A program made the translations under genes and the position numbers. From positions 1 through 25,843 of the IMG/VR virus record IMGVR_UViG_3300048586_000509: a stretch of 25,843 nucleotides of DNA. One strand, written 5' to 3'. Under the pieces are notes generated by a model that saw only the letters and a list, made by a program, of their open reading frames with translations, made no database searches and was not told where the DNA came from. Positions 4,723 to 24,882 of this stretch are shown here, piece by piece; within the stretch, counting starts at the first letter, position 1, and every line of letters starts with the position of its first letter. The DNA comes from a virus.

Positions 4723-4756
4723 GTTCGCCTCTCGTGTCTTTCGCGTCGTGAACAAA

Positions 4757-4829
4757 TTGGGTGGGCCGGGTTCCTGGACGCTCCCCAGCGTTTCGATCCA
4801 GCGGTAGGATACCGCGCCGGCCCACCCAA
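4757..4829 (-). promoter_or_regulatory. Highly structured leader: long stem enclosing two hairpins
   Basis: TTGGGTGGGCCGG (4757-4769) and CCGGCCCACCCAA (4817-4829) form a perfect 13-bp stem. Inside are ACGCT-cccc-AGCGT (4778-4791) and GCGGTA-gga-TACCGC (4801-4815), giving a predicted three-way junction. Read on the minus strand it lies after the stop of the 259-residue gene and before the ribosome binding site of the 566-residue gene, and the outer stem is followed by AATTTGTT. It may be a terminator/attenuator, a processing site or a riboregulator. No known riboswitch class is recognised. Confidence 0.55.
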
Positions 4830-4835
4830 AGGGTA

Positions 4836-9087: not shown

Positions 9088-10698
9088 TCATTCCTCTCGC
9101 AAGGCGCGCACCCAGGCCGCCGTGGTCCAATTCGCCAGGTCGTGCTTCTCGCGGCGCGCCTTGACGATGTGATGGTCAATGGTCTTCTGCCCGTTCGGGC
9201 CGGTCGCCACGACGTCGAAGTATGACGTCGGGCGGGTCTGCCCCGGGCGGTGAATCCGGTCGCGACTCTGCGTGTACTTGTACAGGCTGAAGTCATACGA
9301 CAGGTCCAGCATGTTGTCGGCGGCCGTCATATTCAGCCCGAGCGACCCGGTCCCGAGGGTCCCAAAGAGCCATGCCGGCCCCGACGGCGCCGTGCGTGGG
9401 TCAAGCGCCCGTAGGGCGTTCTCGCGGTCGAGGCGCTTCTGTCCACCATACAGACCCTCGATCACGACCCGAGGGAACCTCTCGCGGGCGGCCTCGACGG
9501 CGCGGTGTAGCTCGGGCAGGAAGCGAACCCAGATCACGACCTTGAAGTTCGGGTCGGCGACGAGCCGGTCCCCGAGCCAGTGCAGCAACCAGTCGAGCTT
9601 CTCCCGACCCACCTCCGCGACCGGTCCCGCGAGGGCCGGTGCCGGGGTCGACTCGACGGCTGGGGCCTCGGTCGCGAACAGCTCCTCAAGCCACCCCGGG
9701 GCCTCCGTCGGCGTCTCTTCGAGCAGCGGCGCTTCGACCGAGACCCCGCCGATGAATCCCGAGGTTAGCTGGGCGAGCCGCAGCCCCTTCACCATCGCCT
9801 GCTGCGCCGTCGCGGCCGTCGTGTCAGAGAGCCACGCCACCATGTCGTCGCGCATCTCCTTGTACAGCTTCCACGTCGGGTCGGTCAGCGCCACGGTGTA
9901 GGTCACCGGTGGCAGCTTCTCGGGCAGGTCGAGGCAATCCTTCTTCAGCCGGCGCAAGACGTACGGCGCGAACCGGCGCTGCATGTCGTCGAGGTTCAGC
10001 CACTTCACAACCTGCCGGTTCTCGAAGCCACCCATGACGGCGTACTTGCTGTAGAAGTGCTGCAGCGTGTAGGACTGCCCCGGGCGGTCGTTGAGGATGG
10101 AGTCGGCCATCATCTTGCCCTGCGCGTACATGTCGAGCGGGTTGTTGGCAATCGGCGTGCCATTCAAGAGCAGCACCCGGCCACACCGCTTGCGGAGCAT
10201 GAAACACGCCTTCGTCTGGAGCGCCGTCCAGTTCTTCACCGCCGTCGACTCGTCGAGCACCAGTAGGGTCTTGGGCCCGGTCGAGGCCAGGAGCTGTTCC
10301 AATCGGTTCTTCGACCGGATGAACTCATAGTTGGTGATCAGGAACTGGAGCCGGCGCCGGGCGTCGGGCGGTCCCGAGTGCCACGTCCTCGGCTTGGCGT
10401 GGAACTGAGTGACACTCGCCGGGGTCGTCTCCCACAAATGCTTCTTCAGCTCACCCAGCTCGGGGTCGAACCAGACCGAGCGCACCGAGGCCGGCGCGAT
10501 GATCAGGGCACGGTCGAGAACCTCGGTCTCGAACATCACCTGAATCGCGTCGATAGTCTGCTTGGTCTTGCCGGCGCCCATTTCGTCGGCGAGCATCATC
10601 GCGGGCTTCGTGAGAATCCAGTCCACCCCGACGCGCTGATGGGCGTACGGCACGAGCCGGGCGCGTGAAAGGTCGTACGGCTGAGACCCGTCGCTCAC
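9088..10698 (-). CDS. SNF2-family superfamily 2 helicase / DNA translocase
   Basis: This is a 536-residue ATPase. Motif Q/I region: PYAHQRVGVDWIL then MLADEMGAGKTKQTI (Walker A, about 35-49). Motif II is LDES (149-152). Motif III is LLNGTPIANN, and the C-terminal lobe has LGTGSLGLNMTAADN (V) and QSRDRIHRPGQTRPT (VI with arginine finger). An insert of about 50 residues rich in Ala, Pro and Glu separates the lobes. The GTG start (10698) overlaps the preceding stop. Phage SNF2-like proteins are thought to act in replication, recombination or anti-restriction remodelling. The exact role here is unknown. Confidence 0.93.
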   Translation of the reverse strand: MSDGSQPYDLSRARLVPYAHQRVGVDWILTKPAMMLADEMGAGKTKQTIDAIQVMFETEVLDRALIIAPASVRSVWFDPELGELKKHLWETTPASVTQFHAKPRTWHSGPPDARRRLQFLITNYEFIRSKNRLEQLLASTGPKTLLVLDESTAVKNWTALQTKACFMLRKRCGRVLLLNGTPIANNPLDMYAQGKMMADSILNDRPGQSYTLQHFYSKYAVMGGFENRQVVKWLNLDDMQRRFAPYVLRRLKKDCLDLPEKLPPVTYTVALTDPTWKLYKEMRDDMVAWLSDTTAATAQQAMVKGLRLAQLTSGFIGGVSVEAPLLEETPTEAPGWLEELFATEAPAVESTPAPALAGPVAEVGREKLDWLLHWLGDRLVADPNFKVVIWVRFLPELHRAVEAARERFPRVVIEGLYGGQKRLDRENALRALDPRTAPSGPAWLFGTLGTGSLGLNMTAADNMLDLSYDFSLYKYTQSRDRIHRPGQTRPTSYFDVVATGPNGQKTIDHHIVKARREKHDLANWTTAAWVRALREE

Positions 10699-10883
10699 GA
10701 GACCGGCTCCAGGTTGTCAATCGTGACGTCGCTGAGACGAAACCGACCAGCCTGCACGCCGGCCCGGAACTCTTCGAGCGCCTCAGTATTGTCGGCGTCG
10801 CCCTCGGGGCCGCCGCGCATCCGCTCTTCGAGGTCGTCGGGCACCTCGATGTGGGCGTGAATCCATGCGCTAATCGTCTTCAT
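10695..10883 (-). CDS. 62-residue acidic hypothetical protein
   Basis: ATG 10883 overlaps the stop of the preceding gene (TAATG), and GGAGG lies ten bases upstream. The product begins MKTISAWIHAHIEVPDDLEE and is rich in Asp and Glu. Its predicted fold is a strand followed by helices. I do not recognise it. Its overlaps with both neighbours support it as a real gene. Confidence 0.55.
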   Translation of the reverse strand: MKTISAWIHAHIEVPDDLEERMRGGPEGDADNTEALEEFRAGVQAGRFRLSDVTIDNLEPVS

Positions 10884-11254
10884 TACAGGTATCCTCCGAC
10901 CTTGCCCCTCATTCGCTCGGTCGTTGCGATGAAGTCAATGTCAAGGTCGTAGCAAACGCGCGCATCCACCGCGCAGTCGATGTTGAGCGACGACATATGG
11001 CCGACGGGCGCGAAAATGTTGTCTGTCATGCGCACGTACAGCGGGTCACCCCGGATGAACGCTTCGCGCACCGCCAATAGGTCGTCCGGGGCGCGCAGCG
11101 GGTCGAATTGCTTGGGCAGGGTCGAGACCCCGACGACCTGCGCGGCAGCGACCTGTTCGACCTCGGCCGGGCTCGCGAGGCGCACCAGCGCTTCTTTCGC
11201 GCCGACCGCGCTGACGAACATGGCTTTCAGGAAATTCCGACGGTCGTCACTCAC
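10883..11254 (-). CDS. Hypothetical protein with a twin-arginine-like N-terminus
   Basis: This is a 123-residue protein starting at GTG 11254 with CAGGAG nine bases upstream. Residues 5-10 are RRNFLK, matching the Tat signal core (S/T)RRxFLK, followed by AMFVSAVGA, a short weakly hydrophobic stretch. The remainder contains YVRMTDNIFAP and VCYDLDIDF. If real, the signal would direct export of a folded protein; the hydrophobic region is shorter and interrupted by Lys and Glu, so a cytoplasmic protein is equally possible. The family is unknown. Confidence 0.55.
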   Translation of the reverse strand: MSDDRRNFLKAMFVSAVGAKEALVRLASPAEVEQVAAAQVVGVSTLPKQFDPLRAPDDLLAVREAFIRGDPLYVRMTDNIFAPVGHMSSLNIDCAVDARVCYDLDIDFIATTERMRGKVGGYL

Positions 11255-11528
11255 TTCTCTGCTCCTGCCGGCCGTGGTCCAGGCCGTTCTTGTACCACGA
11301 GTAGTTCACCGCGTCGGTCTCGCCCCCGCAAAGGCGGCACCGGTATCGCTTCGGCGTCATCGCGCCGATGTACTCGCAGGGCTCGAACTCGTGCGGCCCT
11401 CGACACTCGCGCAACTTGTTGTGGTTGACCTGGACCGCGTTCCAGATGTCGAGGGCATCCGACTTCGGGATGCCCGACACCTTCGCCATGAGGTCCAGGA
11501 GCGTTTCCTTCGGCTTGTCGTCTTCCAT
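11247..11528 (-). CDS. Small zinc-ribbon phage protein
   Basis: This is a 93-residue protein. Residues 1-35 are helical (LLDLMAKVSGIPKSDALDIW). A likely zinc site is formed by C42 and C51 (CRGPHEFEPC) with the CRLCGG pair (about 65-70). The C-terminal VNYSWYKNGLDHG resembles small phage proteins with a wYknGl-HG ending. It starts at ATG 11528 with GAGGAG close before it, and its stop region overlaps the next gene. The function is unknown. Confidence 0.6.
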   Translation of the reverse strand: MEDDKPKETLLDLMAKVSGIPKSDALDIWNAVQVNHNKLRECRGPHEFEPCEYIGAMTPKRYRCRLCGGETDAVNYSWYKNGLDHGRQEQRSE

Positions 11529-11534
11529 AGCTCC

Positions 11535-11786
11535 TCAGAGCGGCGCGCCGCACCCATTGCAGCGCCCGACAGGACTGCTTGCCCAGAGGCGGCAGTACCG
11601 ACATTTGAACACCCACGGCTCGGGCTGAGGCCGGGGCAGCGTCAACGGCTTCACGCCGTGGTGAAACGCGAGAAGGCTCCCGGCCACTTGCGCTGAGACC
11701 GGCTTGCCGTTCAGGCGGAACTCGGCCTCTAGACCCGTGCGGATGACCTCCAAGACGTTGCCGTTCTTGAACGTGTAACGGGGCAT
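11535..11786 (-). CDS. Small beta protein with C-terminal zinc knuckle
   Basis: This is an 83-residue protein. The N-terminal part (YTFKNGNVLEVIRTG) is a short beta hairpin domain. The C-terminus holds CRYC and CNGC, a rubredoxin-like four-cysteine knuckle. ATG 11786 overlaps the stop of the upstream 41-residue gene (TAATG), so this start is chosen over the longer frame to 11870. The function is unknown. Confidence 0.6.
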   Translation of the reverse strand: MPRYTFKNGNVLEVIRTGLEAEFRLNGKPVSAQVAGSLLAFHHGVKPLTLPRPQPEPWVFKCRYCRLWASSPVGRCNGCGAPL

Positions 11787-11911: not shown

Positions 11912-12165
11912 TCGCGTCTCTCCAGCTCCCGGATCAGTTCAAGCCGCAGCCGAATGATGATCCGCTCGGCGTCGTAACGCGCGAACCGCTGCTCGCGCGT
12001 CTCGTTCGGGATCGGCGATTGCAACGCGACGTACATGCGCTGCAACAGGCGTACGCCTCGCATCCGCCGGGCATCGGCTAGCGTGCGGACAATCCAGCAC
12101 GTGCCGTGAAAGCTGGCGACGATCAGCGCCGCCACCAGCACGAGGTCCAGCGCGTTAGGCCACAT
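11908..12165 (-). CDS. Small membrane-anchored helical protein
   Basis: This is an 85-residue protein with one N-terminal membrane segment (LDLVLVAALIVASFHGTCWI, about residues 6-25), then a basic amphipathic helix rich in Arg (RRMRGVRLLQRM and the last ~30 residues). ATG 12165 overlaps the end of the SbcC-like gene by 11 bases. This topology is common among phage early proteins that target host membrane processes. No family is recognised. Confidence 0.6.
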   Translation of the reverse strand: MWPNALDLVLVAALIVASFHGTCWIVRTLADARRMRGVRLLQRMYVALQSPIPNETREQRFARYDAERIIIRLRLELIRELERRE

Positions 12166-13450
12166 GCCCGTCTTCGATCATCACGGTCACGCCGCCGGCC
12201 TGCTCGGCGACGCGCTCGACCCAGATCTGGGCGCCTGCGGTCTCGGCCTGCTCGGCCACGGCCTTCATGGAGCGTGAGTCGAGGTCGTTGCCGCTCCGCA
12301 CCAACAGCACCTTGAGCTTCGGGTTCAGGGCGAGGCCGATGGCGACGCTGACCCGGATCTGCTCGGCGGTCGAGGCCTGTTTCAGCGGCACGTCGTTGAA
12401 CGTGACGCCGGTCTCGCTGACCCCGAGACCCTCGACCGGGTACTGCACCGAGCCGATCAGCTCGGCCTTGCGCGCCGCGAGGTCGACGAGGCGCTGGTCC
12501 TGCTCCTTGGCCTTGGCCGTCGCGGTGTCGAGCGCAGCGAGGGCCTCGGCCCGGAGGCGGTTCTCGCGCACCTGCGCGTTCGTGCGCTCGGCCGCCGCGA
12601 GCTCCTCGCGAATGACGTCGGTGGCCGGCACCTCGGCCTCCAGACGGGCGACCTCGGTCGCGAACTTGTCGACCTCCACGGTCTCGACAACGATCCGGTC
12701 CTGAACGTTCACCAGTCGCTGCTCGGCCTCGGCGAGCTTCTTGCGGAGCTCCTCGACGGTCTCGCGGCCGAGCCGCTCGGCGCCGGTCAGGGCGTGCACA
12801 CTGTCCAGGGCTCGCTCGTGCTTGCGCTTCGCCTCGGCCACGGCCTGCCGCGCGTGTTCCGCGTCGAGCATGCGCTGGCTGATCGCGTCGATGGACACCT
12901 CCTGTTCGGGCGCCTCGGCGTGATGCGGCATCCCGTCGACCCGCGCCTTGAGCTGCAGTACCTCGCGGTTGAAGTGCGTGCGGAAGCTGTACGCCTCGCG
13001 GTGCTGGTCGTCGAGAATCGACGTGTCGAGGTTGACCAGCTGGACGAGGATGTCGCGCTGCGCCTTCGGCTCGGCCCGGGCGAACTCCAGCGGGTCGAAC
13101 GACAGCTTGCCGAGCAGCTTGTCGAGCATGGCCTGCGGCGACGGGTACTTGGCCCCGTCGGCGTTGGTTACGGTCAGACTGCTCTTGACCTCGTTCGCCT
13201 CGCTGAACCAGAACTTCCGCGTGACGACGAACTCGCCGAGGTCGAGCACGACCTTGGCTTCGGTCTCGCCGTGGCGGATCGGTTCCTCGGGCACGAGCTT
13301 GTTGCCGCCGAGCGCATAGGCGATGGCGTCGAGGACCGAGGACTTGCCGGCGCCGTTCAGGCCGCCGACGGTGATCAGCGATCCTTCGGGCGTGATCTCG
13401 ACGGCCGAGAGGCGTTTGATGTTCTCGGCGACCAACTGAACAATCTTCAT
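12155..13450 (-). CDS. SbcC/RecF-like SMC-type ATPase
   Basis: This is a 431-residue protein. Walker A is GGLNGAGKSS (29-38) after a strand typical of SMC/Rad50/RecF heads. The middle (about 170-340) is a charged coiled coil, shorter than in bacterial SbcC (~1000 residues total). The C-terminal head has a signature-like STAEQIRVSVAIGLALN and LKVLLVRSGNDLD where Walker B is expected. The usual Asp-Glu pair is not obvious, a deviation I recall from related phage ATPases. No SbcD nuclease gene is visible nearby; the DnaQ-type exonuclease (14572-15423) is a possible partner. ATG 13450 overlaps the previous stop. It probably acts in DNA end processing or recombination. Confidence 0.85.
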   Translation of the reverse strand: MKIVQLVAENIKRLSAVEITPEGSLITVGGLNGAGKSSVLDAIAYALGGNKLVPEEPIRHGETEAKVVLDLGEFVVTRKFWFSEANEVKSSLTVTNADGAKYPSPQAMLDKLLGKLSFDPLEFARAEPKAQRDILVQLVNLDTSILDDQHREAYSFRTHFNREVLQLKARVDGMPHHAEAPEQEVSIDAISQRMLDAEHARQAVAEAKRKHERALDSVHALTGAERLGRETVEELRKKLAEAEQRLVNVQDRIVVETVEVDKFATEVARLEAEVPATDVIREELAAAERTNAQVRENRLRAEALAALDTATAKAKEQDQRLVDLAARKAELIGSVQYPVEGLGVSETGVTFNDVPLKQASTAEQIRVSVAIGLALNPKLKVLLVRSGNDLDSRSMKAVAEQAETAGAQIWVERVAEQAGGVTVMIEDGHVA

Positions 13451-15423: not shown

Positions 15424-15646
15424 TGGGGTCCTCGCTCGCGAATGTGACGTTGACAGCCCTCAGCCCATCGGCTTTCGGCCCGTCGTTGGTTGGGGTGAAC
15501 TCCACGCGGTCGCCGGGCTTCATGATGTCGAAGTCCGCACGATTGACGACACCCCGCGCGTGCATGAAGCGCGCCCGGTTGTCTGCGTCGCCACGGATGA
15601 ATCCGTAGCCCTTGTCATACTCCATGCGGATGACGGTGCCCTTCAT
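15413..15646 (-). CDS. Cold-shock-domain protein
   Basis: This 77-residue protein begins KGTVIRMEYDKGYGFIRGD, with a clear RNP1-like KGYGFI motif. The RNP2 position reads ARFMHARG in place of VFVHFS. The remainder (MKPGDRVEFTPTNDGPKADGLRAVNV) matches the last strands of an OB-fold cold-shock domain. It should bind single-stranded RNA or DNA. ATG 15646 overlaps the stop of the DUF3310 gene (ATGA), and its own end overlaps the exonuclease start. Confidence 0.88.
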   Translation of the reverse strand: MKGTVIRMEYDKGYGFIRGDADNRARFMHARGVVNRADFDIMKPGDRVEFTPTNDGPKADGLRAVNVTFASEDPSAE

Positions 15647-15879
15647 GGTTGATTCTTCTCCAAGTGCGCGATGTACCGCTGCAGGTACCAGAGGGCCTTC
15701 TTCAGGTCTTGCAGCAGGTCGGGATGCTTCTTGCCGGCGCGCCACACGTACTTCGTGACGTTCCCGATATGGTAACCCCAGCCCATGGCCTCGGCGACCT
15801 TGATGTGCTCGTACGGGTTGTCGGCGCCGCCGTAGTGGCTGGGGTGGTCGACAGCTTCGTCGGTCTTGCTCACGCTCAT
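15643..15879 (-). CDS. DUF3310 phage protein
   Basis: This is a 78-residue protein with the family pattern DHPSHYGG near the N-terminus, HIGNVTKYVWRAGKK in the middle and DLLQDLKKALWYLQRYI at the end. DUF3310 proteins are widespread in phages, are sometimes labelled nucleotide kinase, and have no proven function. ATG 15879 has GGAG very close; GTG 15873 is better spaced. A third option is GTG 15936, overlapping the TS-like stop (GTGA), which would add 19 residues with three cysteines (VNCTCGIPLAEHGNGC). Confidence 0.8.
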   Translation of the reverse strand: MSVSKTDEAVDHPSHYGGADNPYEHIKVAEAMGWGYHIGNVTKYVWRAGKKHPDLLQDLKKALWYLQRYIAHLEKNQP

Positions 15880-15932
15880 TCTCCGCAGACACCCGTTGCC
15901 GTGTTCAGCCAACGGAATGCCGCATGTACAGT

Positions 15933-17021
15933 TCACGCCTTCGCAGCTCGGGCGGCGCGACGGCGCCACAGCCAGTCGCGGCAGGCCACGACCCAGTCCG
16001 CGTTGTCGGGCGAGCCGTCGAACTCGCCCTGCGTGTCCTCGGGATCGTCGTCGCCGTGCTTGTACATGACGTAGGCGGCGAAGCACTCCGAGACCATCGT
16101 GGCCCATGGATTGAACGAGAAGTCCCAATCCAGGTCGCACAGCGCCTCGGGGTCCGTGACCTCGGCAATCTTCAGCAGCTTGGGGATGAGTTCGTCGATG
16201 TTCTCGGGCATCGGCACGTAGTGCACCCGCTTGCCGTCGCCCTCGTCTTCGAGGTTGTTGTCGTAGACGTACGGGTTGCTCCAGCGCGCACTGCTCGTGT
16301 TGATCGTGCGCACGCGCTCGTACAGGCTGTTCTGATAGGCGTGCCAGTTGACGCTCACCTGGGTGTAGACCCCGGGCGGCACGCCAATCTTCAGCGCCAT
16401 GTACTCCAGTAGGAAGGCAAAGTGGACGGCGTTGGCGCCGTAGCAGCCCCAAATGATGTCGTTGGAGCGGCAGAAGACCGTCATGTCCAACTTGCCGTCG
16501 TTGATCATGAACGCGGCCGACTGGTTGCACGGCACGTCTTTGCCGACGCGCCCGAGGTCGGCGACCGGGTCCCACATCTGCAGCATGCAGCGCCGGTCGT
16601 CGGGGTTGGCCTTCAGCGCCGCAATGATTGTGGGCAGCTGATCGACGGGTGTCGGGTTATCCACGTGGCCGTGCTCGTCGGCTCGGGGGAACCAACCGCG
16701 CCACCGGTGTCCGTAGGCGCCGTGGAAGGTCTCACCGTCGTCGCTGAACTGGGCGAACGACTTGAGGATGGCGCTCGGGCCGGCGACGTCGTTGCGCCCG
16801 GCGAGCATCCACAGCGCTTCGTAGAGGTGGAAGAACGGGTTGGCGTCGCGCTCGGGCCAGAACAGCACGCGCTGCATCGGCTTGCGGTAGACGGTCGAGA
16901 CCGGACCCGGGGCGACGAGAACCGGGCCGTTTCGGCTATCGCGCTGAACGCCGTGGCGCCCGAGATAGATGAGGGCCTCTGGGAGGGCCGTGTGGACGTT
17001 CGTTGCGTCGATGACATGCAT
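15933..17021 (-). CDS. Thymidylate-synthase homologue, predicted dUMP hydroxymethylase
   Basis: This is a 362-residue ThyA-superfamily enzyme. ATG 17021 is chosen because GAAGGAG precedes it. Visible features are FHLYEALWMLAGRNDV (E68, equivalent to the catalytic Glu), DDRRCMLQMWDP (R143/R144, phosphate binding), catalytic C165 in DVPCNQS, CRSNDIIWG (184-192) and GANAVHF with N197, consistent with uracil recognition. The usual PCH is PCN. TS homologues with an altered active site in phages convert dUMP to 5-hydroxymethyl-dUMP with methylene-tetrahydrofolate. The downstream kinase, amino acid transferase, radical SAM and PLP genes support this over plain dTMP synthesis, but the biochemistry is inferred. 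Confidence 0.85.
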   Translation of the reverse strand: MHVIDATNVHTALPEALIYLGRHGVQRDSRNGPVLVAPGPVSTVYRKPMQRVLFWPERDANPFFHLYEALWMLAGRNDVAGPSAILKSFAQFSDDGETFHGAYGHRWRGWFPRADEHGHVDNPTPVDQLPTIIAALKANPDDRRCMLQMWDPVADLGRVGKDVPCNQSAAFMINDGKLDMTVFCRSNDIIWGCYGANAVHFAFLLEYMALKIGVPPGVYTQVSVNWHAYQNSLYERVRTINTSSARWSNPYVYDNNLEDEGDGKRVHYVPMPENIDELIPKLLKIAEVTDPEALCDLDWDFSFNPWATMVSECFAAYVMYKHGDDDPEDTQGEFDGSPDNADWVVACRDWLWRRRAARAAKA

Positions 17022-17068
17022 TCGCTCACTCCTTCGCTTGGGGACGGCCTTCGGAGACGTCACCCGAT

Positions 17069-17074
17069 AGTCTA
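17069..17074 (-). promoter_or_regulatory. TAGACT element before the TS-like gene
   Basis: TAGACT lies in the 55-base gap between the helical-domain gene and the TS-like gene, 48 bases before the start codon. No convincing -35 is visible at 16-18 bases. It matches the element in the gaps at 14569 and 19724. Confidence 0.3.
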
Positions 17075-17076
17075 CC

Positions 17077-17922
17077 CTAGCTGACGGCGAAGCGCCGCTT
17101 CAAACGGGCTCCGGTCTGGGCGCTCCGGTACTTCGCGTACTCGCAGGCCCACATTTCGCACTCGTGGAGTTCCCACGGTTCCCACTCGGTCGGCCAGTGG
17201 CGCGGGTCGCGACTCGCCTCCAGAAGGTCCCACATCACCCCGAGCATCGTCGCCTGGTCTTGCGTCGAGCCGTACCGGTAGTGCGCCGGGTCGTCGGCCA
17301 TCAGCCAGCCGAGACCGCGAGTGCAGCCCGGGCCGGCGACGGTCCACGTGTTGATGTCGGGCGCCTTGTCCAGCACGTCGGTGTAGCGCAGGTCGATCAC
17401 GACCTCGCCCGCGCTGAACTCGCCCATGTTGTACAGAGCCACCAGGTGCTCGAACGTGTGCTGGAGCGACCGCACCGGTGGCGGACTCTCCCACCAGCGA
17501 CGAAGATGCGGCCGCGCCTCGTCGATGGCGTACAGCAGGCCGTCGAGTTTGTTGAACCCGATGGGCGAGTGGACCATGTAGGCGCCGGTGACGAGCGGCG
17601 CGACACCCTTCAGCCGGCGACGCGCCTCTTCGGTGTCCCAGCCCTCCACGAGCAGGTCGGTGATCCGCTCGCCGGTCTCGATGCGGTTGAACCAGCGGAA
17701 GATCAGACAGGCCTCGACCGCGCGCAGACCCGAGACCTTCGAGCGGACGTTCTCGCGGAACCACACCGTCGTCTTGTCGTTCTCGCGATGCACGTTCGTG
17801 AAGCGCCACTGCTGGAAGATGGGGTCATCGGTCCAGGTCTCGCGCGGCGCGCCCCACTCTCGCTTCCGACGGATGCGCTCACGCTCACGAGCCACCCCGA
17901 AGTAGTGGGCCACATTCTTCAT
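17077..17922 (-). CDS. 5-hmdU DNA kinase helical-domain homologue (formerly aGPT-PPlase type)
   Basis: This 281-residue protein has RERERIRRKREWG (11-24), TWTDDPIF and FTNVHRENDKTTVWF (41-55), then helical segments and a VAGPGCTRGLGWL motif near residue 200. This arrangement matches the phage family first described as alpha-glutamyl/putrescinyl-thymine pyrophosphorylases and later treated as the helical domain of 5-hydroxymethyl-dU DNA kinase (HMUDK_hel). Here it has no P-loop of its own, so it is probably a DNA-recognition subunit working with a separate kinase, most likely that at 18455-19027. ATG 17922 overlaps the MT-A70 stop. Confidence 0.75.
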   Translation of the reverse strand: MKNVAHYFGVARERERIRRKREWGAPRETWTDDPIFQQWRFTNVHRENDKTTVWFRENVRSKVSGLRAVEACLIFRWFNRIETGERITDLLVEGWDTEEARRRLKGVAPLVTGAYMVHSPIGFNKLDGLLYAIDEARPHLRRWWESPPPVRSLQHTFEHLVALYNMGEFSAGEVVIDLRYTDVLDKAPDINTWTVAGPGCTRGLGWLMADDPAHYRYGSTQDQATMLGVMWDLLEASRDPRHWPTEWEPWELHECEMWACEYAKYRSAQTGARLKRRFAVS

Positions 17923-18458
17923 GCTTCGTCTCCCAGATAGGTCCAGTGCGGCCGGCGCACCGGGTTTCGCGCGAACAGCTCGGTGTAGGGGCCGTCATAC
18001 AGCGCCTCGACGATGTTGTAGAACTCGTCAGGCTTCTCGCTGTGGCCCCAGTTGATAGCTTCGAACGTCGACCGCACGTTGGCGGCCTTCCGGGTCGGCC
18101 GGCCTCGGGTCGCAATCAGGCAGGTCTCGTGCTCGGCGCGCACGTACCGCCCCATCCCGAACCACCGGTTCCCCTTCACCGTTCGCTTCAGCCAGATCAG
18201 CTCGCTCTTGGGGCCGTTGAAGCCCCACGCGCGGATGACCCTCAGCGCCTCATCCTGCATCGAGGCGACGCGCCAGAGGAACAACACGCAATCGTCGGCG
18301 AGCGGCGGCAACTCCAACGCGCAGATGTCCTCAATGGACATCGTGGCGTAGTGCTTGTCAGCGCCTCGGGCCAGGCCTGGCAGTCGGTCGCCGAACTGCC
18401 AGGCCGGGTCGGCCACGAGAACGCTTGCACGCGGAATGACGTGACCGTACGGGATCAC
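17919..18458 (-). CDS. MT-A70-family DNA adenine methyltransferase homologue
   Basis: This 179-residue protein has VLVADPAWQFGD (about 13-24), placing DPAW where MT-A70 enzymes usually have DPPW. HYATMSIEDICAL, CVLFLWRVASM and an RAEHETCLIATRG strand follow, then KPDEFYNIVEALYDG and ELFARN near the end, all typical of phage MT-A70 proteins. It would transfer methyl from SAM to adenine N6. The Pro-to-Ala change in the catalytic motif may be tolerated or may lower activity. The GTG start overlaps the kinase stop. It lies between the two parts of the predicted 5-hmdU kinase system. Confidence 0.88.
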   Translation of the reverse strand: MIPYGHVIPRASVLVADPAWQFGDRLPGLARGADKHYATMSIEDICALELPPLADDCVLFLWRVASMQDEALRVIRAWGFNGPKSELIWLKRTVKGNRWFGMGRYVRAEHETCLIATRGRPTRKAANVRSTFEAINWGHSEKPDEFYNIVEALYDGPYTELFARNPVRRPHWTYLGDEA

Positions 18459-19027
18459 GCGAGGTCCAGTACCGCCACGAGGTAGTCGTACGCCTCGTCG
18501 CGGCTCAGCTCCTCGACGCGCACCCCGGCGGCCCTCAACCGGGGCATCATCCGCTTGCGGAGGTTCGCGTCGCGGTTGACGGTGTTCGTCGGGTCGAGCG
18601 GCTTGTCATTTCCCTTGGCCGTCCGCCGCTCTCCGATGCTCCGGAGGCACTCGTCAATCGGGGTCGACAGGACGATCACCCGGAAGTCGTCGCCGAACTC
18701 CTCCGCCAGCGCGGCGGCGCGCTTGAAGTCATCGCCGACGATGATGCCCTCGAAGAGGACGTCACGGTGCATGTTGATGCCGTGCTCGCGGATGATGTCG
18801 TAGACCTGCTGCGGGCTCTTCAGCGTGTCGCACCCGCCGCAGGCGACCTCATAGTGCCCCGGCACGAGCAGGTCGAGGCGGCCCGCCTTGGGGTGCGTGC
18901 ACACGTTGAAGAACGGGCGCCGCCGGCCGTCGGTGTAGTGCGGCGTGCGCGCTGAGTAGCGCGCCATGATGCGCTTCACGAGGGTTGACTTGCCTGAGCC
19001 GCCGGTGCTCCGAATGTTGATGATCAT
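18455..19027 (-). CDS. P-loop kinase, predicted catalytic part of 5-hmdU DNA kinase
   Basis: This is a 190-residue NTPase/kinase. Walker A is STGGSGKST (7-15). VPGHYEVACGGCDTLKS (55-71) is a signature I associate with phage nucleotide or DNA kinases next to hypermodification genes. DVLFEGIIVGDD (89-100) is the acceptor-side strand with a likely catalytic Glu. A lid-like ERRTAKGN and a C-terminal helical end follow. In phages M6 and ViI a kinase phosphorylates 5-hydroxymethyl-dU within DNA to make it a leaving group. ATG 19027 overlaps the HD-gene stop. A free-nucleotide kinase is the alternative. Confidence 0.75.
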   Translation of the reverse strand: MIINIRSTGGSGKSTLVKRIMARYSARTPHYTDGRRRPFFNVCTHPKAGRLDLLVPGHYEVACGGCDTLKSPQQVYDIIREHGINMHRDVLFEGIIVGDDFKRAAALAEEFGDDFRVIVLSTPIDECLRSIGERRTAKGNDKPLDPTNTVNRDANLRKRMMPRLRAAGVRVEELSRDEAYDYLVAVLDLA

Positions 19028-19701
19028 CGCGTGTACTCCCCCATCAGCGCGTCGTTGAACTTGCGCACAATGCGCTTGGCGGCCCAGCTCAGGGTACGGC
19101 TGGGCAGTGGACGGCTGGAGTCCGTGAGGACCCCGTCCAGTTGCCGGATGAGTCGGGCCTGCTGGTCGAGGAAGCCCTGACGGGCCTCGCGCCACGACCA
19201 GAAGCCCCACGCCCCGACCTGCGCTTCTTCCTCGGGCGTCAGGGGCGGGTACTTCGCACTGGGGACGCCGGCCGGCGCCCAATCCTTCGCGAAGCCCCGG
19301 GAGCCCTCGTAGCGCACCATCAGCGTGTCGGCGCGGCCGACGGCCGGGTGCTGAACGATGGTGATGCCGAGGGCCGTGTAGATCGTGCGCTGGGCGCGCT
19401 CCTCGGCCTGGCGATAGCCGCGCATGGCGGGGGTCTGCTTGAGCCACTTCGTCACGTCGCCCAGGTATGCCTCCGAGGCGTCGTGGAACAGCGCCTGATA
19501 GGCGACGTGCGGCCCATACGGCTCGCAGAGCCGCGAGACGTACACCGAGTGCTGGGCGACGCTGATCGGCTTCTTCAGGTGGCCGGCGAAACGGTTGCAG
19601 TTGGCGAGGGCGTGCGCGATGTCCTCGACGCGCACGTCCTTCTGGGCGAGGTTCAGCGGGTTCACATAGAGCCCGCTGAATGTTCTGATCACTGGCTTCA
19701 T
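19024..19701 (-). CDS. YfbR-like HD-domain phosphohydrolase
   Basis: This 225-residue protein has DIAHALANCNRFAGH (27-41), VAQHSVYVS (H51), LFHDASEAYLGD (H73-D74) and a later D125, the metal-binding set of YfbR-type HD enzymes, which dephosphorylate deoxynucleoside 5'-monophosphates. In a phage that replaces or modifies thymine, such an enzyme could tune dTMP, dUMP or hmdUMP pools; this role is inferred. ATG 19701 has a strong GAAGGAGCGA site. The last ~80 residues extend beyond the usual domain and are helical and basic. Confidence 0.85.
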   Translation of the reverse strand: MKPVIRTFSGLYVNPLNLAQKDVRVEDIAHALANCNRFAGHLKKPISVAQHSVYVSRLCEPYGPHVAYQALFHDASEAYLGDVTKWLKQTPAMRGYRQAEERAQRTIYTALGITIVQHPAVGRADTLMVRYEGSRGFAKDWAPAGVPSAKYPPLTPEEEAQVGAWGFWSWREARQGFLDQQARLIRQLDGVLTDSSRPLPSRTLSWAAKRIVRKFNDALMGEYTR

Positions 19702-19723
19702 TCGTTCGCTCCTTCAGGGCGAG

Positions 19724-19753
19724 AGTCTATCGCGGTTTCAGTCGTCGAGTCGA
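19724..19753 (-). promoter_or_regulatory. Possible promoter TCGACT-N18-TAGACT
   Basis: TCGACT (19748-19753) and TAGACT (19724-19729) lie upstream of the HD gene on the minus strand, in one of the few non-overlapping gaps within the modification locus. The -35 falls inside the end of the radical SAM gene. Confidence 0.35.
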
Positions 19754-21156
19754 CGCAGTGGGATGAACTTGCCCTGGTACTTGTCGAGGTCGATGGGCTT
19801 CTTGTAGTCGACCGGCATCAGCTTGGGCGCCGAGCCGAGCATCAACGACCCGCACGGCACGTGCTTGTCGCCGCCGAACTCTTCGCCGCACGAGAGGCAC
19901 CCCGACGGCGGGCAGACGTCCATGGGCTGGAACAGCTCGTTGCCCGACTGCCGGTGGTAGATGGGCACGCGCTGGCCGTGGCACTGGTCGCCCGTCAGGT
20001 ACTTGTACCCGAGGGACTTGCCTCGCGAGCGCAGCACCTTGCCGGCGGCGTCGCGCTCGAACTCATACTCATAGCACAGCGACATCGTGACGCCGGCCTT
20101 CTTCGTCTCGATCATGAACCGGTCGAAGGCTGCGATGCGGTACGCCTCGTCGATGGTGCGCTGGCCGCCGATGTTGCACGTAAACAGGTCGCCGAACGCC
20201 TGTCCGCGCTTCTCGCCGAACCGCACCTTCATCTGGTTGATCATGGCCTGCACGGCAGGGTAGCTGATCTCCACGAACTTGAAGATGAGGTGGTTGGCGC
20301 CGGCCTCGGCGAGCATGTGGATCAACTCCACGATGTCATCGTTGGTCACGACCCCGGCAACGATGGGGTTGACCTGGATGGACACGTAGATGCCGTGGCG
20401 GCGCATTTCACGCACCTGCTCGATTTGATGCTCCAGCGACTCGGCCCGAGGCGACAGCTTGCGCCAGTCGTCGGGCTTGGAGGTGTTGATCGAGAACTGC
20501 ATGTAGCTGTGCTTGTTGCGCTTGAGGTGATCGTACGCCCAGCCCGGCACGTGCTTGCGCGTCAGGAAGAAGATGGGAAGGCCGTGGTCGACCGCCGCCT
20601 GCGACGTGTTCTGGGTGTTGTGGTAGTGGTCTTCCAGCTCCAGGAACGGGTCGATGAACGACGACATGTACACGGCGGTGCCGATGCGCATGCCTTCGAT
20701 CTGCTTCCGGATCTTGTCACCGTAGAACGGGTCAACCGTCGCGAGGCCCTGACCGCGATACCCGCGCACGCCGTGGTTGATGTAGCAGAAGGCGCACCCG
20801 ACGGCGCAGAAGCCGCCATACGGCTGGGTGAGCAGCGCATCGGTCATGCACGGGCGCGGCCGCACGTTATCGGGTTCGTACTTGCCCTTGTACCAGCCCC
20901 GCAGGGGCACGTTCTGCTCGGGCAGAACGACGTGCGGGATGGGCTCCAGGAACACCTTCATCTCCCGGGTGTTCGCCTCGCTCGCGTTCCGCACCATGCC
21001 GATGTCGCGGTACGTGTACCGCCACCCGGTCTCGGGGTCCACCTGGGGTTCAATCTTGTTCAGGTGGGGCTCGCTCTGCATAAAGAACGCGTACGGGTCG
21101 GTCTGTTCGAGGACGTCCTGGGTCAGACCCTCGGTGAGCTGCTGATCGATGTCCAT
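19738..21156 (-). CDS. Radical SAM enzyme of the DNA hypermodification locus
   Basis: This is a 472-residue protein. The [4Fe-4S] motif is CAVGCAFC (C117, C121, C124), followed by YINHGVRGYRG and barrel strands such as TAVYMSSFIDPF and SYMQFSINT, similar in layout to SplB-like radical SAM proteins. The C-terminus has CPPSGCLSCG and a later VPCG (about residues 415-435), enough ligands for an auxiliary cluster or zinc. In phage M6 a radical SAM isomerase turns an N-linked glycyl adduct on 5-hmdU into a carbon-linked one, and this gene is a candidate for that step. ATG 21156 follows AAGGTGG; a GTG one codon upstream is possible. Confidence 0.88.
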   Translation of the reverse strand: MDIDQQLTEGLTQDVLEQTDPYAFFMQSEPHLNKIEPQVDPETGWRYTYRDIGMVRNASEANTREMKVFLEPIPHVVLPEQNVPLRGWYKGKYEPDNVRPRPCMTDALLTQPYGGFCAVGCAFCYINHGVRGYRGQGLATVDPFYGDKIRKQIEGMRIGTAVYMSSFIDPFLELEDHYHNTQNTSQAAVDHGLPIFFLTRKHVPGWAYDHLKRNKHSYMQFSINTSKPDDWRKLSPRAESLEHQIEQVREMRRHGIYVSIQVNPIVAGVVTNDDIVELIHMLAEAGANHLIFKFVEISYPAVQAMINQMKVRFGEKRGQAFGDLFTCNIGGQRTIDEAYRIAAFDRFMIETKKAGVTMSLCYEYEFERDAAGKVLRSRGKSLGYKYLTGDQCHGQRVPIYHRQSGNELFQPMDVCPPSGCLSCGEEFGGDKHVPCGSLMLGSAPKLMPVDYKKPIDLDKYQGKFIPLRRLDD

Positions 21157-21848
21157 CACACCACCTTCTTGTATTCGTCTCGGGCGAGGCCCGCGACGGT
21201 ATTGTTGAACGGGCCACGCTCGAAGAGGATGTAGGCGGCCCGCGAGTGATAGGCGATACGGATCGGCCGATACCCGTAGTGGCGGCCAACCACATAGCTC
21301 ACCGCCGAGAGATAGCTGGGGATGTTCGGGTCGACCGAGACCCCGTAGCCGGCGATGTGCGTGAGGCTCATCTCATACGTCTTGGCGTTGAGATGCACCC
21401 AACCGACCGCCGCGTCCGTCAACTGGACATACGGCGCGCCGGCCTTGAAGATGCGGTCGGTGACCGCCCGATACTCGGGATTGAACGCCCACTTCTTCGC
21501 CGTCCAGCTGTTGAAATCGGCGCTGATCAGGTCGTAATGCCCGGGCGTCGGGATGTGCGCCTTGAACGAGTCTGTGCAGTGTAGCACGCTGTTCGGGCGC
21601 AAGACCTTTAGCCGCTCGATGCAGGCCTGCGAGTAGTCCCAGGCCTCGTGGGACTGGATCAGGTCGAGGTCGTCGAGCACGCTGGCGAGCAGCCCGATGC
21701 CCGCGAACAGCTCCAGCACGCGCAGTGGGCCGCCAAACGACGTCGAGAACAAGTGCCGGAAGCACTCACCCTCGCGGCGGGTCTCGTTGGGCTTCTCCGA
21801 GGTCATCGTGAGATAGTCACGGGCCTCGGCATAGGTCGGCTTGGCCAT
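21156..21848 (-). CDS. SAM-methyltransferase-like protein with unusual motif IV
   Basis: This is a 230-residue protein. Motif I is VLELFAGIGLLASVL (44-58), typical of class I SAM-dependent methyltransferases, and an acidic EAWDYS follows as motif II/III. Where DNA N-methyltransferases have (D/N)PPY/W, this has SADFNSW (109-115), and no PC dipeptide of cytosine-C5 enzymes is seen. It sits between the radical SAM and PLP genes, so a small-group modification of the hypermodified base is an attractive guess. Cytosine, protein or non-catalytic roles remain open. ATG 21848 overlaps the preceding microprotein stop; the longer frame to 21881 lacks a site. Confidence 0.7.
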   Translation of the reverse strand: MAKPTYAEARDYLTMTSEKPNETRREGECFRHLFSTSFGGPLRVLELFAGIGLLASVLDDLDLIQSHEAWDYSQACIERLKVLRPNSVLHCTDSFKAHIPTPGHYDLISADFNSWTAKKWAFNPEYRAVTDRIFKAGAPYVQLTDAAVGWVHLNAKTYEMSLTHIAGYGVSVDPNIPSYLSAVSYVVGRHYGYRPIRIAYHSRAAYILFERGPFNNTVAGLARDEYKKVV

Positions 21849-21940
21849 CAGAAGATGTTGTCCGTGGGCAGGCACGCCCAAGCGAGGGTGAGCACGACGC
21901 CGACGACGATGCCGACGATGAACGAGGCGACGATGAGCAC
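21848..21940 (-). CDS. 30-residue membrane microprotein
   Basis: GTG 21940 lies one base after the stop of the PLP gene, with GGAG seven bases upstream, and its TGA overlaps the ATG of the methyltransferase-like gene (ATGA). The product is almost wholly hydrophobic (LIVASFIVGIVVGVVLTLAW), followed by CLPTDNIF. It would insert in the inner membrane. Its place inside the modification locus fills an otherwise unexplained 93-base gap. Confidence 0.5.
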   Translation of the reverse strand: MLIVASFIVGIVVGVVLTLAWACLPTDNIF

Positions 21941-21941
21941 G

Positions 21942-22811
21942 TCAGGCTCCGATGTTCCAGAAGACGACCGGGCCGCGCACGGCCAGCTCGTCGAGGATGC
22001 CGGGGCGCGTCAGCCACTTCCAGGCTTTCGCGTCATAGTACGGGTTGCACGGAAACGGCACCGACACGTCCTTGGCCGCGTCAGCGTAGCTGTAGCCTTC
22101 GTCGACGAGGCGCCAGTTGTGCCTCCACGTCGTGCCCGACATCTGGGCGATGTAGTCCTTCAGGGCCTCGGTGCTGCGCGAATAGCCCATGTGGAACACG
22201 ACGTCGTATTCCAGTCGGCTGGCGACCAGACCCTTGACGATGCCCGAGGCGACAGTGCCCGAGCTGACACTGATCACGAGTGTCCCGTCCTCGGGGAGCG
22301 CCGCGTGCCCCGGGCGCCGCTCGTTGAGGAACGTGCGCTCGAACTCAGCGGCGTTCTCGGTCACTGACTCGGGCAGCTTGAGCGCGTTGGGCATCAGGTA
22401 GGCGCCGTGCGCGCCATGCGTCGCCTTCAGGCTCGACTTCGCGGCGTGGTACAGGATCGCCGAGCGGCCGGCCTTCAGCGCGACGAGGGACGCGCCCAGC
22501 TCGCGCGCCCTCTCCTGCTGGCTCCGGAGGTGACCGTCGGGATCGGCGGTATACCGGGGCCAGAAGTTGACGCACTCTTTGCCTAGGGCACGGCAGGTGT
22601 ACGCGACGGCCCACCCCGCTTTGGAGTGGTAGGTGTCGAGCACGCCGATGACCGGCTCGGGCCGCTTCGCGATGTGGGCGACGACCCCGCGCAGCTTCGA
22701 GAAGCTCGGACCGGGCTCGGGGCACGAGAGGTCTTCGCGCTTCACGAGGATCGGGTGCCCGTCGAACGAGTAGGTCTCGACCGGCGTGTTGAGTGTGAGC
22801 AGATTGGTCAT
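21942..22811 (-). CDS. Fold-type-II PLP enzyme, predicted decarboxylase of a DNA-linked amino acid
   Basis: This 289-residue protein has ILVKREDLSCPEPGPSFSKLRG (21-42). KRED followed by SKLRG matches the start of ACC-deaminase/cysteine-synthase-type enzymes, where the Lys (K39) forms the PLP Schiff base. IGVLDTYHSKAGWAVAYTC and a VSVSSGTVASGIVKG phosphate-cradle loop follow. In phages M6 and ViI PLP enzymes decarboxylate the amino acid attached to 5-hmdU; the neighbours here imply the same class of reaction. A lyase or racemase reaction is also possible. ATG 22811 overlaps the second kinase stop. Confidence 0.82.
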   Translation of the reverse strand: MTNLLTLNTPVETYSFDGHPILVKREDLSCPEPGPSFSKLRGVVAHIAKRPEPVIGVLDTYHSKAGWAVAYTCRALGKECVNFWPRYTADPDGHLRSQQERARELGASLVALKAGRSAILYHAAKSSLKATHGAHGAYLMPNALKLPESVTENAAEFERTFLNERRPGHAALPEDGTLVISVSSGTVASGIVKGLVASRLEYDVVFHMGYSRSTEALKDYIAQMSGTTWRHNWRLVDEGYSYADAAKDVSVPFPCNPYYDAKAWKWLTRPGILDELAVRGPVVFWNIGA

Positions 22812-23332
22812 GACTTGGCCAGCTCCTCTTCGACTTGCTTGCGCAGCATTGCGATGAAGGCCGGCGCGTAGCTGAATTCGAGATCCATCTGCCACCACGT
22901 CGCCGTGACGCCGTGCTTGCCGATGAGGTTGCGATAGCGCCCTCGGCCTTCGTACTCGCACATCTTCGTGGTCCAGTACTCGGCCTTGAACTCCTTGCCG
23001 TTGCCCTCGCAGCGGCGGCGGATGGACGCTTTCATATCCTCGGCCGAGGCTCGGGTGGCGTGGACGATAAGCGTGCGGGCGCCGATCTGCCGCTTGATGT
23101 CGAGCACGGCCGAGGCGATACGGTTGGTGCCCTCGACGACGATCACCGGCACGCCGGTGTCGCACAGGTCGATGAGCTTGGCCATCATCTCCGCCGGCTT
23201 GAGCTTCCAGCCCGAGCCGTTGTCGGCGTACACTGTGGCCACGCGCGGGTCGTCGACCCACGGCGTCAGAGCCGCCTTCACTGAGGTCGTCTTGCCCGAG
23301 GCGTTCGGGCCGGTCACGAGGATCAGGATCAC
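22808..23332 (-). CDS. Second P-loop kinase in the modification locus
   Basis: This is a 174-residue protein. Walker A is VTGPNASGKTTS (6-17). A VPVIVVEGTNRI strand with a likely acidic residue (about 55-66), SIRRRCEGNGKEF and a CEYEGRGRYRNL segment follow. It is not obviously homologous to the kinase at 18455-19027 outside the P-loop, because it lacks the GHYE-CGGC motif. GTG 23332 overlaps the transferase stop and is preceded by GAAGGAGCGA. It might phosphorylate 5-hmdUMP on the way to the triphosphate, or an intermediate on DNA. The function is undetermined. Confidence 0.75.
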   Translation of the reverse strand: MILILVTGPNASGKTTSVKAALTPWVDDPRVATVYADNGSGWKLKPAEMMAKLIDLCDTGVPVIVVEGTNRIASAVLDIKRQIGARTLIVHATRASAEDMKASIRRRCEGNGKEFKAEYWTTKMCEYEGRGRYRNLIGKHGVTATWWQMDLEFSYAPAFIAMLRKQVEEELAKS

Positions 23333-24276
23333 GACTTCGCTCCTTCCCAGGGCTCGCCGCGCATCCGGCCGGCCGCCTGGGCGTTCAGTTCGTGCAGCGC
23401 CTGCTGATTGTGGTCGCCGTCCAGAAACGACCGGAACGCCGCGCCGAGCTGCTGTGCGGTCTCGCTGACGAGACTCCACTCATGAAGACCCAGGGACAGC
23501 TCGCGCGAGTCGAGCCCCATCGGGTAGTGCCCCGACAGCGACGACTTCCACTTGCACAGGACGGTCTCGACCTCCTGCAGCTGGATGGGTCGGTCGAAGT
23601 GCGGCGGCGCGGCAAGGTCGCTGTAGGCCTGACCGAGGTGGTCGACGACCCACTTGATACGGCTCGCGTCGCTCGGGAACTCGTCGCGGTTCCCGATGAG
23701 CATGTCGGCCTGCATCAGCGCCGCCTTGTAGGGCGAGTCGAACATGAACACGTCGGCGTCCTCGAAGCAGATCGGAACGCCCATGACCCGTTCGAGCATG
23801 TCGCCGACCTTGAAGGCCATCCACGGCCCGAACAGGCGCAGCTGCTGGACGCGCTTCGAGACCAGCTTGAAGGGGAGCCGACCCTCCTTGCCGTGGTCAC
23901 GCGGGTGATTGGCGAAGGCGTCCACGAGGGCCTCGGGGCCGTCGGGCGCGAGCTGCATGTAGCTGTCGACGGCGGTGATGGCCGCAGCGCCTCGGAAGTG
24001 CCGGCGCTCGTGCCCTCGGGGCCACCGGCCGCCAATGGGTGTCTCGGCGGTGTTGTAGGCCGCCTTGAGCATGCGGCCCCAGTACTTGTCAGCCGTCGGG
24101 GCATCCGCGATGTAGCTCGCAGCGCCCGCGTTGTAGAAGCACCAGTAGGCGAACAGCAGCCGCTTGAGCTTCGTCGGCTCCAGCTCGGCGCCGACGAGCG
24201 CGATGTACAGGGGGTCGAGGTCGCCGGTGACGATGAGCTGGCGGCCGAACTCTTCGATTGGGGTCACGTCTTTCAT
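23329..24276 (-). CDS. Amino acid:DNA transferase homologue (aGPT-PPlase clade 2 type)
   Basis: This 315-residue protein starts at ATG 24276 with GAGG six bases upstream; ATG 24282 and GTG 24294 are alternatives. Key motifs are LLFAYWCFYNAGAASYI (40-56) and GGRWPRGHERRHFRG (82-96), which I associate with the phage family first called alpha-glutamyl/putrescinyl-thymine pyrophosphorylase clade 2, later shown to attach amino acids to phosphorylated 5-hmdU in DNA. The fold is predicted helical, DNA-glycosylase-like. The amino acid used cannot be read from sequence; glycine is suggested by the co-occurring radical SAM and PLP genes. Confidence 0.82.
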   Translation of the reverse strand: MKDVTPIEEFGRQLIVTGDLDPLYIALVGAELEPTKLKRLLFAYWCFYNAGAASYIADAPTADKYWGRMLKAAYNTAETPIGGRWPRGHERRHFRGAAAITAVDSYMQLAPDGPEALVDAFANHPRDHGKEGRLPFKLVSKRVQQLRLFGPWMAFKVGDMLERVMGVPICFEDADVFMFDSPYKAALMQADMLIGNRDEFPSDASRIKWVVDHLGQAYSDLAAPPHFDRPIQLQEVETVLCKWKSSLSGHYPMGLDSRELSLGLHEWSLVSETAQQLGAAFRSFLDGDHNQQALHELNAQAAGRMRGEPWEGAKS

Positions 24277-24290
24277 TCGCATCCTCGGGT

Positions 24291-24509
24291 TCACTCGGCG
24301 GCTTCAGCGACGTCGAGCAGGGGCTTGGGGCCGTCATCCGTCATCACCTTCGGCTCGAAGCCTTCGGCGATGAGACGACCTTCGACAGCGTCCGCGACCC
24401 ACGCTGAGATGGACATTTCGCGGCGCTTGGAGGCATCCTTGATAGCCTCCTTCACTTCGGGTCGCACGTGCGCCCCGATGTATTCACTTCGATCCGAAAT
24501 GGTGATCAT
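24291..24509 (-). CDS. Ribbon-helix-helix-type small DNA-binding protein
   Basis: This is a 72-residue protein. SEYIGAHVRPEVKEAIKDASKRREMSISAWVADAVEGRL reads as a beta strand followed by two helices with an S-x-S-x-W/hydrophobic turn, as in Arc/CopG/MetJ-type proteins. ATG 24509 is chosen; a strong ribosome binding site is lacking, but it overlaps the nuclease gene by 26 bases. It could repress an early promoter. It stands at the head of the modification locus, so autoregulation of that locus is plausible but unproven. Confidence 0.65.
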   Translation of the reverse strand: MITISDRSEYIGAHVRPEVKEAIKDASKRREMSISAWVADAVEGRLIAEGFEPKVMTDDGPKPLLDVAEAAE

Positions 24510-24882
24510 GGCGAGCCAGTATCTCTGTGAGTGCCGCCTCGACGTCGAACCCCGGGACGAGCCATTCATAGGTCTCGACCCACGCGTCTAGGTGCCTCGG
24601 GTGAACGATTCTCGTTGAACGCACGCCTTTGCGCTCAGCGAAGATGACGTACCGAGCATACCCCGCTTTGGCCAGCCGATTCAAGACAAATTTTTGTATG
24701 CCCGGACCCCGTACGTCGGGGTTTGCATACTTCACCTCCCACCACGACGTTCCACCGTTTCCGGTCAAACTGATGTCGGGCGTTCCGCTGTTGAACCGTT
24801 CCTCGTGTCTGATGGTCCAGAAGTCAGGCCGGCGCTCCCGGACCCGGTCGACCATCTTACCCTTCAGTGTGCTTTCGTTCAT
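24484..24882 (-). CDS. VRR-NUC-like PD-(D/E)xK nuclease
   Basis: This 132-residue protein has an N-terminal helix with MVDRVRERRPDFW, then RHEERFNSGTPDISL (GTPD) and WWEVK (E-x-K), the catalytic core of PD-(D/E)xK enzymes of the VRR-NUC type. Downstream are GPGIQKFVLNRLAKAGYARYVI (the helix-strand that completes the fold) and a C-terminal helix. Such phage nucleases may resolve branched DNA or cut foreign DNA. The gene is visibly more AT-rich (for example about 24684-24706) than its neighbours. ATG 24882 overlaps the 77-residue gene by 26 bases. Confidence 0.85.
   Translation of the reverse strand: MNESTLKGKMVDRVRERRPDFWTIRHEERFNSGTPDISLTGNGGTSWWEVKYANPDVRGPGIQKFVLNRLAKAGYARYVIFAERKGVRSTRIVHPRHLDAWVETYEWLVPGFDVEAALTEILARHDHHFGSK

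Follow-up and report, generated by a model that had tools for sequence, protein, structure and literature searches.

A predicted thymidine hypermodification operon with a methyltransferase-like protein as candidate base-tailoring enzyme

The complete IMG/VR virus record IMGVR_UViG_3300048586_000509 (25,843 bases, itself a fragment; hereafter the window) carries a minus-strand operon of ten tightly packed genes (24294-15933) predicted to hypermodify thymidine in phage DNA. Sequence comparison indicates with high confidence that the operon contains an enzyme core of the type found in Pseudomonas phage M6, and some thymines in the phage DNA are very probably replaced by an amine-bearing base like that of M6. 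Judged by their sequences, three components are new relative to M6, namely an extra P-loop kinase (kinase B), an MT-A70 protein and a member of an undescribed S-adenosylmethionine (SAM) methyltransferase (MTase)-like family. The reading favored here, with moderate confidence, combines a core of the M6 type with base tailoring by an MTase. Put forward more tentatively is the proposal that the phage DNA contains a base not seen before, a 5-(2-aminoethyl)deoxyuridine bearing an N-methyl group or some other SAM-derived alkyl group, and that the undescribed MTase family is one interchangeable end-tailoring cassette among several (methyltransferase, amidoligase, GNAT-like protein, and FAD oxidoreductase with aldo-keto reductase) plugged into M6-type operons. 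The operon represents a testable route to new DNA bases, in which an amine-bearing thymine is combined with an added SAM-dependent tailoring enzyme.

Core enzymes of the M6 type

The genes are arranged in the order ADDT, kinase B, pyridoxal phosphate (PLP) enzyme, MTase-like protein, radical SAM enzyme, HD phosphohydrolase, kinase A, MT-A70, HMUDK_hel and thymidylate synthase (TS) homologue (Table 1), with stop/start overlaps of 1-4 bases at most junctions. Every protein listed in a first-pass annotation of this DNA was recovered at its place on the minus strand, mostly with such overlaps; the list lacked a separate entry for the MT-A70 protein (18458-17919). All ten reading frames are intact and catalytic residues are conserved, which, with the short overlaps, argues against a degenerate or unexpressed locus of reassorted genes without function in a metagenomic contig. 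That explanation, for which it can be said that the nearest relatives of the window genes lie in different lineages and that the record is a fragment, is considered very improbable.

The core was assessed with Pfam curated cut-offs, PHROG profiles, direct comparison with M6 gp051-gp059 and solved relatives in the PDB. Matches above the Pfam cut-offs were obtained for Thymidylat_synt (PF00303, 4.7e-21), HMUDK_hel (PF18723, 1.1e-30), MT-A70 (PF05063, 1.5e-20), PALP (PF00291, 5.1e-9) and ADDT (PF18724, 1.2e-22). The first-pass annotation had named the placing of its HMUDK_hel and ADDT candidates in unrelated families by profiles as an outcome that would refute it; both fell in the expected ones. 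Radical_SAM (2.3e-6) and the YfbR-like HD family (5e-4) scored just under their cut-offs, and for these two proteins the PHROG matches were decisive (phrog_9252, 1.2e-134, and phrog_318, 6.1e-44, respectively).

The TS homologue (phrog_5131, 1.4e-107) shares 46% identity with M6 gp058, and its top PDB match is a CMP 5-hydroxymethylase (3.6e-16). Numbered from the first GTG, it carries Cys179 in DVPCNQ and Asn211 in YGAN, the TS-type Asn being retained; these are the residues previously noted as C165, in a PCN motif, and N197, when numbered from Met15. It is therefore a predicted dUMP hydroxymethylase. The ADDT protein (phrog_6364, 5.5e-85; 47% identity to M6 gp051) is homologous over nearly all of its length to the glycinyltransferase 8z2m/8z2n (8z2m, E 4.6e-67) and to the ADDT structure 25qc (E 1.4e-75), with the motifs RWPRG(H/A)ERRH and QEVET(V/I)LCKWKS in common, and it is predicted to transfer a glycyl group onto activated 5-hydroxymethyldeoxyuridine (5-hmdU) in DNA. 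In the radical SAM enzyme (45% identity to M6 gp053), the CxxxCxxC motif at 117/121/124 is invariant and C-terminal cysteines are conserved, and in the PLP enzyme (phrog_7093, 8e-101; 59% identity to M6 gp052) the catalytic Lys39 is invariant. HMUDK_hel, which was aligned with M6 gp055 (phmmer 5e-18), is 27% identical to it, kinase A (phrog_800, 1.6e-14) matches M6 gp054 at 1.5e-7 with 24% identity, and the HD phosphohydrolase matches M6 gp059 at 2e-5 (both by phmmer).

The PHROG and phage-record labels terminase small subunit, DNA repair photolyase and threonine dehydratase (phrog_800, phrog_9252 and phrog_7093, respectively) look wrong and hide hypermodification loci. The first was rejected for the kinase A homologues as evidently wrong, and the photolyase label on homologous PHROGs was rejected as well.

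In M6, 5-hmdU in DNA is reportedly phosphorylated, joined to glycine, isomerized by a radical SAM enzyme and decarboxylated by a PLP enzyme to 5-(2-aminoethyl)-dU (5-NedU), as Lee and co-workers are said to have described in 2018 and 2022. PMC6449724 states that M6 contains 5-NedU and gives the 5-hmdU kinase step as well. By homology, the window holds a TS-family hydroxymethylase, a P-loop kinase with HMUDK_hel, an ADDT, a CxxxCxxC radical SAM enzyme and a PLP enzyme of this pathway, so that the M6-like enzyme set proposed in the first-pass annotation is supported by profiles, by comparison with M6 and by the solved glycinyltransferase relative. The identities of the PLP, ADDT, TS and radical SAM proteins to M6, together with the ADDT match to 8z2m, make a 5-(2-aminoethyl)-dU core likely.

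Table 1 Features of the operon and its downstream neighbor (positions of the window)
Feature	Coordinates	Strand	Basis or remark
ADDT	23329..24294	-	start GTG 24294 or ATG 24276
Kinase B, extra P-loop kinase	22808..23332	-	Walker A GPNASGKT
PLP fold-type II enzyme, predicted decarboxylase of isomerized glycyl base	21942..22811	-	PF00291, M6 gp052 homology
30-aa hydrophobic frame, uncertain as gene	21848..21940	-	sequence reading; between PLP and MTase-like genes, overlaps MTase-like start
MTase-like protein, predicted SAM-dependent base-tailoring enzyme	21156..21848	-	structure model, family motifs
Radical SAM enzyme, predicted isomerase of glycyl adduct	19738..21156	-	phrog_9252, M6 gp053 homology
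HD phosphohydrolase, predicted deoxynucleoside 5'-monophosphate phosphatase	19024..19701	-	phrog_318, phmmer to M6 gp059
Kinase A, predicted P-loop subunit/partner of 5-hmdU DNA kinase	18455..19027	-	M6 gp054 homologue
MT-A70 adenine N6-methyltransferase-type protein	17919..18458	-	PF05063
HMUDK_hel, predicted helical component of 5-hmdU DNA kinase	17077..17922	-	PF18723
TS homologue, predicted dUMP hydroxymethylase	15933..17063	-	PF00303, M6 gp058 homology
DUF3310 protein, possible deoxynucleotide kinase (T7 gp1.7 type)	15643..15903	-	PF11753 5.7e-13; just downstream of TS

An undescribed methyltransferase-like family

Searches of 50,697 phage records, PHROGs and NCBIfam gave no match to the MTase-like protein, Pfam gave none above cut-off, and a scan of IMG/VR with this single protein found nothing. 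About a dozen divergent relatives were found by searching loci collected through the radical SAM and PLP proteins (L numbers below denote such related loci). The family shares a GxG SAM motif, DFN, TDSA and LHLN, as well as a conserved acidic residue (D/E) after strand 2. An AlphaFold2 (AF2) model (pLDDT 86.5, pTM 0.85) shows the fold of class I SAM methyltransferases, the top 50 Foldseek matches of this model in the PDB are all class I SAM MTases, and the profile alone matches PDB MTases at 3e-5, with spermidine synthases among the weak matches. The model thus allows the protein to be assigned confidently, by fold, to the class I SAM methyltransferases. At ~230 aa, it leaves no room for a separate DNA-recognition domain. 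A match to a BD-FAE hydrolase (E 0.01, below cut-off) was dismissed as chance, given the MTase fold.

The family gene adjoins the PLP gene in L020, L030, L039, L041, L042, L074, L086, L115, the window and L006, where it does so on both sides, and it adjoins the radical SAM gene in L044. In L006, a single PLP gene is flanked by two different MTase-like genes (9234-11600). A 10-sequence alignment was too divergent for scanning; two other IMG/VR scans with MTase-like alignments, not seeded on radical SAM or PLP proteins, returned only hypermodification contigs already known, and no relatives were found among 11.3 million genome contigs by a scan that reaches close relatives only. On the radical SAM tree, a quick tree with several long branches, the 11 MTase carriers are scattered and MTase presence changes 11 times.

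Kinase B also lacked a match in the 50,697 phage records. The relatives found for it occur only in HEL-KinB-KinA-rSAM operons (L029, L037, L039 and L132), and the kinase B scan returned four loci, all operons of this type and one of them new. Kinase B weakly resembles kinase A (profile 2e-6, hhalign probability 70%), which suggests that the two are distantly related. The low-confidence kinase B model resembles dTMP and adenylate kinases (E ~2e-3) and contains the P-loop; naming a function from it was rejected, the model being too weak. A different second kinase, annotated as polynucleotide kinase, lies between the radical SAM and ADDT genes of Rhizobium phage RHph_I65. The pathway may call for a second phosphorylation step or for a 5-hydroxymethyl-dUMP (hmdUMP) kinase, and the DUF3310 protein may already serve as the latter, DUF3310 being implicated in the nucleotide kinase activity of T7 gp1.7 (PMC10700055).

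The first-pass annotation had regarded the MTase-like protein and the second kinase as possible sources of novelty. This view is strengthened in that Pfam, PHROGs and NCBIfam match neither family at useful scores and both families have so far been found in such operons only. The novelty of the combination was overstated, because combinatorial permutations of such hypermodification genes in viral metagenomes have reportedly been described already, by Lee et al. in NAR in 2022.

Tailoring genes and the predicted product

Based on these comparisons, the following pathway is proposed. The TS homologue would hydroxymethylate dUMP, while the HD phosphatase would probably clear competing dTMP and the DUF3310 kinase, which probably acts in support of the nucleotide pool, may assist in converting hmdUMP to the triphosphate. 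After replication, HMUDK_hel and kinase A would phosphorylate part of the 5-hmdU in DNA, glycine would replace the phosphate via ADDT, the radical SAM enzyme would isomerize the N-linked glycine to a C-linked amino acid, and PLP-dependent decarboxylation would yield 5-(2-aminoethyl)-dU. The side chain would then be alkylated by the MTase-like protein, most likely by N-methylation of the amine, with kinase B probably acting as a second kinase, of the base or of nucleotides, to make activation more effective. We infer the steps from hydroxymethylation to decarboxylation from homology to the M6 enzymes, and the alkylation step and the role of kinase B from fold, operon position and co-occurrence.

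The placing of alkylation at the end of the pathway draws on the surrounding loci. In the order HEL-KinA-rSAM-ADDT-PLP-X, X is an MTase-like gene in L020, L030 and L042 and an amidoligase gene (PF12224) in L026, L032, L046 and L113; GNAT-like proteins occur in L017, L028 and L115 (read from sequence, with no Pfam match), and in L033 an FAD oxidoreductase and an aldo-keto reductase occupy the PLP position. All tailoring states together change 21 times on the radical SAM tree. A primary amine can be methylated, acylated or converted to an amide, and for this reason action of the MTase-like protein on the aminoethyl group is favored. That it N-methylates this group is a tentative suggestion. An interchangeable tailoring slot of this kind, as suggested by the surrounding loci, would help explain how phages vary the chemistry of their DNA to counter restriction enzymes, and it would be a source of enzymes for attaching groups to primary amines in DNA.

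Several observations weigh against this reading. HMUDK_hel and kinase A are only ~25% identical to their M6 counterparts, and kinase B could be modelled only poorly (pLDDT 64). The MTase-like gene lies several genes from the PLP gene in Pseudanabaena phage Pam3 (L009), and L044 has MTase-like, radical SAM, ADDT and kinase genes with no PLP gene found, so that the MTase-like substrate there may be the undecarboxylated base. Family members are 16-29% identical to the window protein and their substrates may thus differ, and the unseeded scans for the family used short conserved patterns that reach only close relatives.

A simpler possibility is a plain M6 system, in which 5-(2-aminoethyl)-dU is the final base and the MTase-like protein and kinase B act elsewhere, in regulation or on RNA, host factors or the nucleotide pool. 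The window has the full set of M6 core enzymes, PLP and radical SAM genes occur without MTase-like or kinase B genes in most related loci, and the role of DUF3310 or kinase B could be no more than to supply hmdUTP. However, hypermodification operons were the only places where the MTase-like family turned up, next to PLP or radical SAM genes; its slot holds an amidoligase elsewhere, and it has been gained or lost repeatedly with the operons. We regard this possibility as unlikely, although it keeps appreciable weight. Alternatively, the MTase-like protein may act on the alpha-amine or carboxylate of the undecarboxylated intermediate, or use a SAM relative (carboxy-SAM, decarboxylated SAM or aminocarboxypropyl transfer), giving a different side chain. 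L044, the two MTase-like genes around the PLP gene of L006 and the spermidine synthases among the weak profile matches are consistent with this, and phages are reported to use carboxy-SAM on DNA through CmoX (PMC12783734). However, neither a CmoA nor a SAM decarboxylase was recognized among the window genes examined, and the PLP gene of the window is intact and directly upstream of the MTase-like gene, making a different side chain rather improbable and leaving alkylation of the aminoethyl base as the preferred reading.

Among the other tailoring genes, pairs of an FAD-dependent oxidoreductase and an aldo-keto reductase occur in ADDT/radical SAM operons in which no PLP gene was found (L033 12170-13941, L040 7961-9788 and L078 7849-9748), suggesting another product from the same intermediate. 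Amidoligase_2-type proteins are present in the M6-type operons of L013, L016, L026, L032, L046, L048 and L113, often right after the PLP gene, and might join an amino acid to the amine of the aminoethyl group.

Relation to known systems and neighboring genes

Phage M6/YuA (Mesyanzhinovviridae) shares with the window the ADDT, PLP, radical SAM, P-loop kinase, HMUDK_hel, TS and HD proteins and the same ADDT-to-TS direction, with 45-59% identity for the PLP, ADDT, TS and radical SAM proteins. Besides its three additions (kinase B, the MTase-like protein and MT-A70), the window differs from M6 in lacking a recognizable homologue of gp056 (Nmad5) and in having an HD protein of another subgroup, placed between the radical SAM and kinase A genes. 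The IMG/VR phages of L063/L064, L066 and L078 (64-70 kb) have ADDT, radical SAM, HD, kinase A, HMUDK_hel and TS genes as in the window but none for the MTase-like protein or kinase B, and in L078, unlike the window, the FAD oxidoreductase and aldo-keto reductase replace the PLP enzyme. L041 and Pam3, like the window, have an M6-type operon with an MTase-like gene, and L041 has the window's order ADDT-PLP-MT-rSAM-KinA, whereas their MTase-like proteins are only 19-25% identical to that of the window and both lack kinase B and MT-A70. In the CmoA/CmoX/CmoY system for 5-carboxymethylcytosine in Synechococcus phage S-B43 (PMC12783734), a DNA base is tailored by a SAM-type transferase, as proposed for the window, with an amide ligase too, but that system acts on cytosine with carboxy-SAM and its core enzymes are unrelated to those of the window.

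The nearest relatives differ gene by gene, indicating by sequence identity a mosaic origin of the operon. The radical SAM enzyme is nearest to L012/L013 (69 and 65%), kinase A, HD, MT-A70 and TS to L055/L063/L066/L078, the PLP and ADDT proteins to L050 and M6-like phages, and HMUDK_hel to L116. The MT-A70 protein (PADLOC MTase_II, 8e-44) occurs in the same place in L063/L064 and L078, at 61-64% identity. Its gene lies between those of kinase A and HMUDK_hel, and its catalytic motif is DPAW in the window, DPGW in L078 and DPPW in L063.

The rest of the window encodes helicases, an SMC-like ATPase, an exonuclease and a Pam3 gp34-like protein, a content that fits a tailed phage. The SMC/AAA ATPase (12155-13450, phrog_1499) is weakly similar to the defence ATPases LmuB and Mad3. 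Upstream of ADDT, a small protein (24484-24882) has a PD-x-EVK nuclease-like look, and its relatives (cluster C20) lie upstream of the operon in L063, L066 and L078.

Tet_JBP-type oxygenases are encoded in L015 (2863-3804), L019 (6206-7399), L056 (8359-9330) and L086 (181-1362), the first assigned by a Pfam match and the other three as relatives by profile. No TS homologue was seen in these operons, so 5-hmdU may arise there by oxidation of T in DNA. In L056, at ~4663-5352 near the radical SAM gene, the radical SAM coding sequence is apparently split, right after its RPC motif, by an intein-like insert, and in L123 and L124 radical SAM proteins of a second subtype flank the PLP gene.

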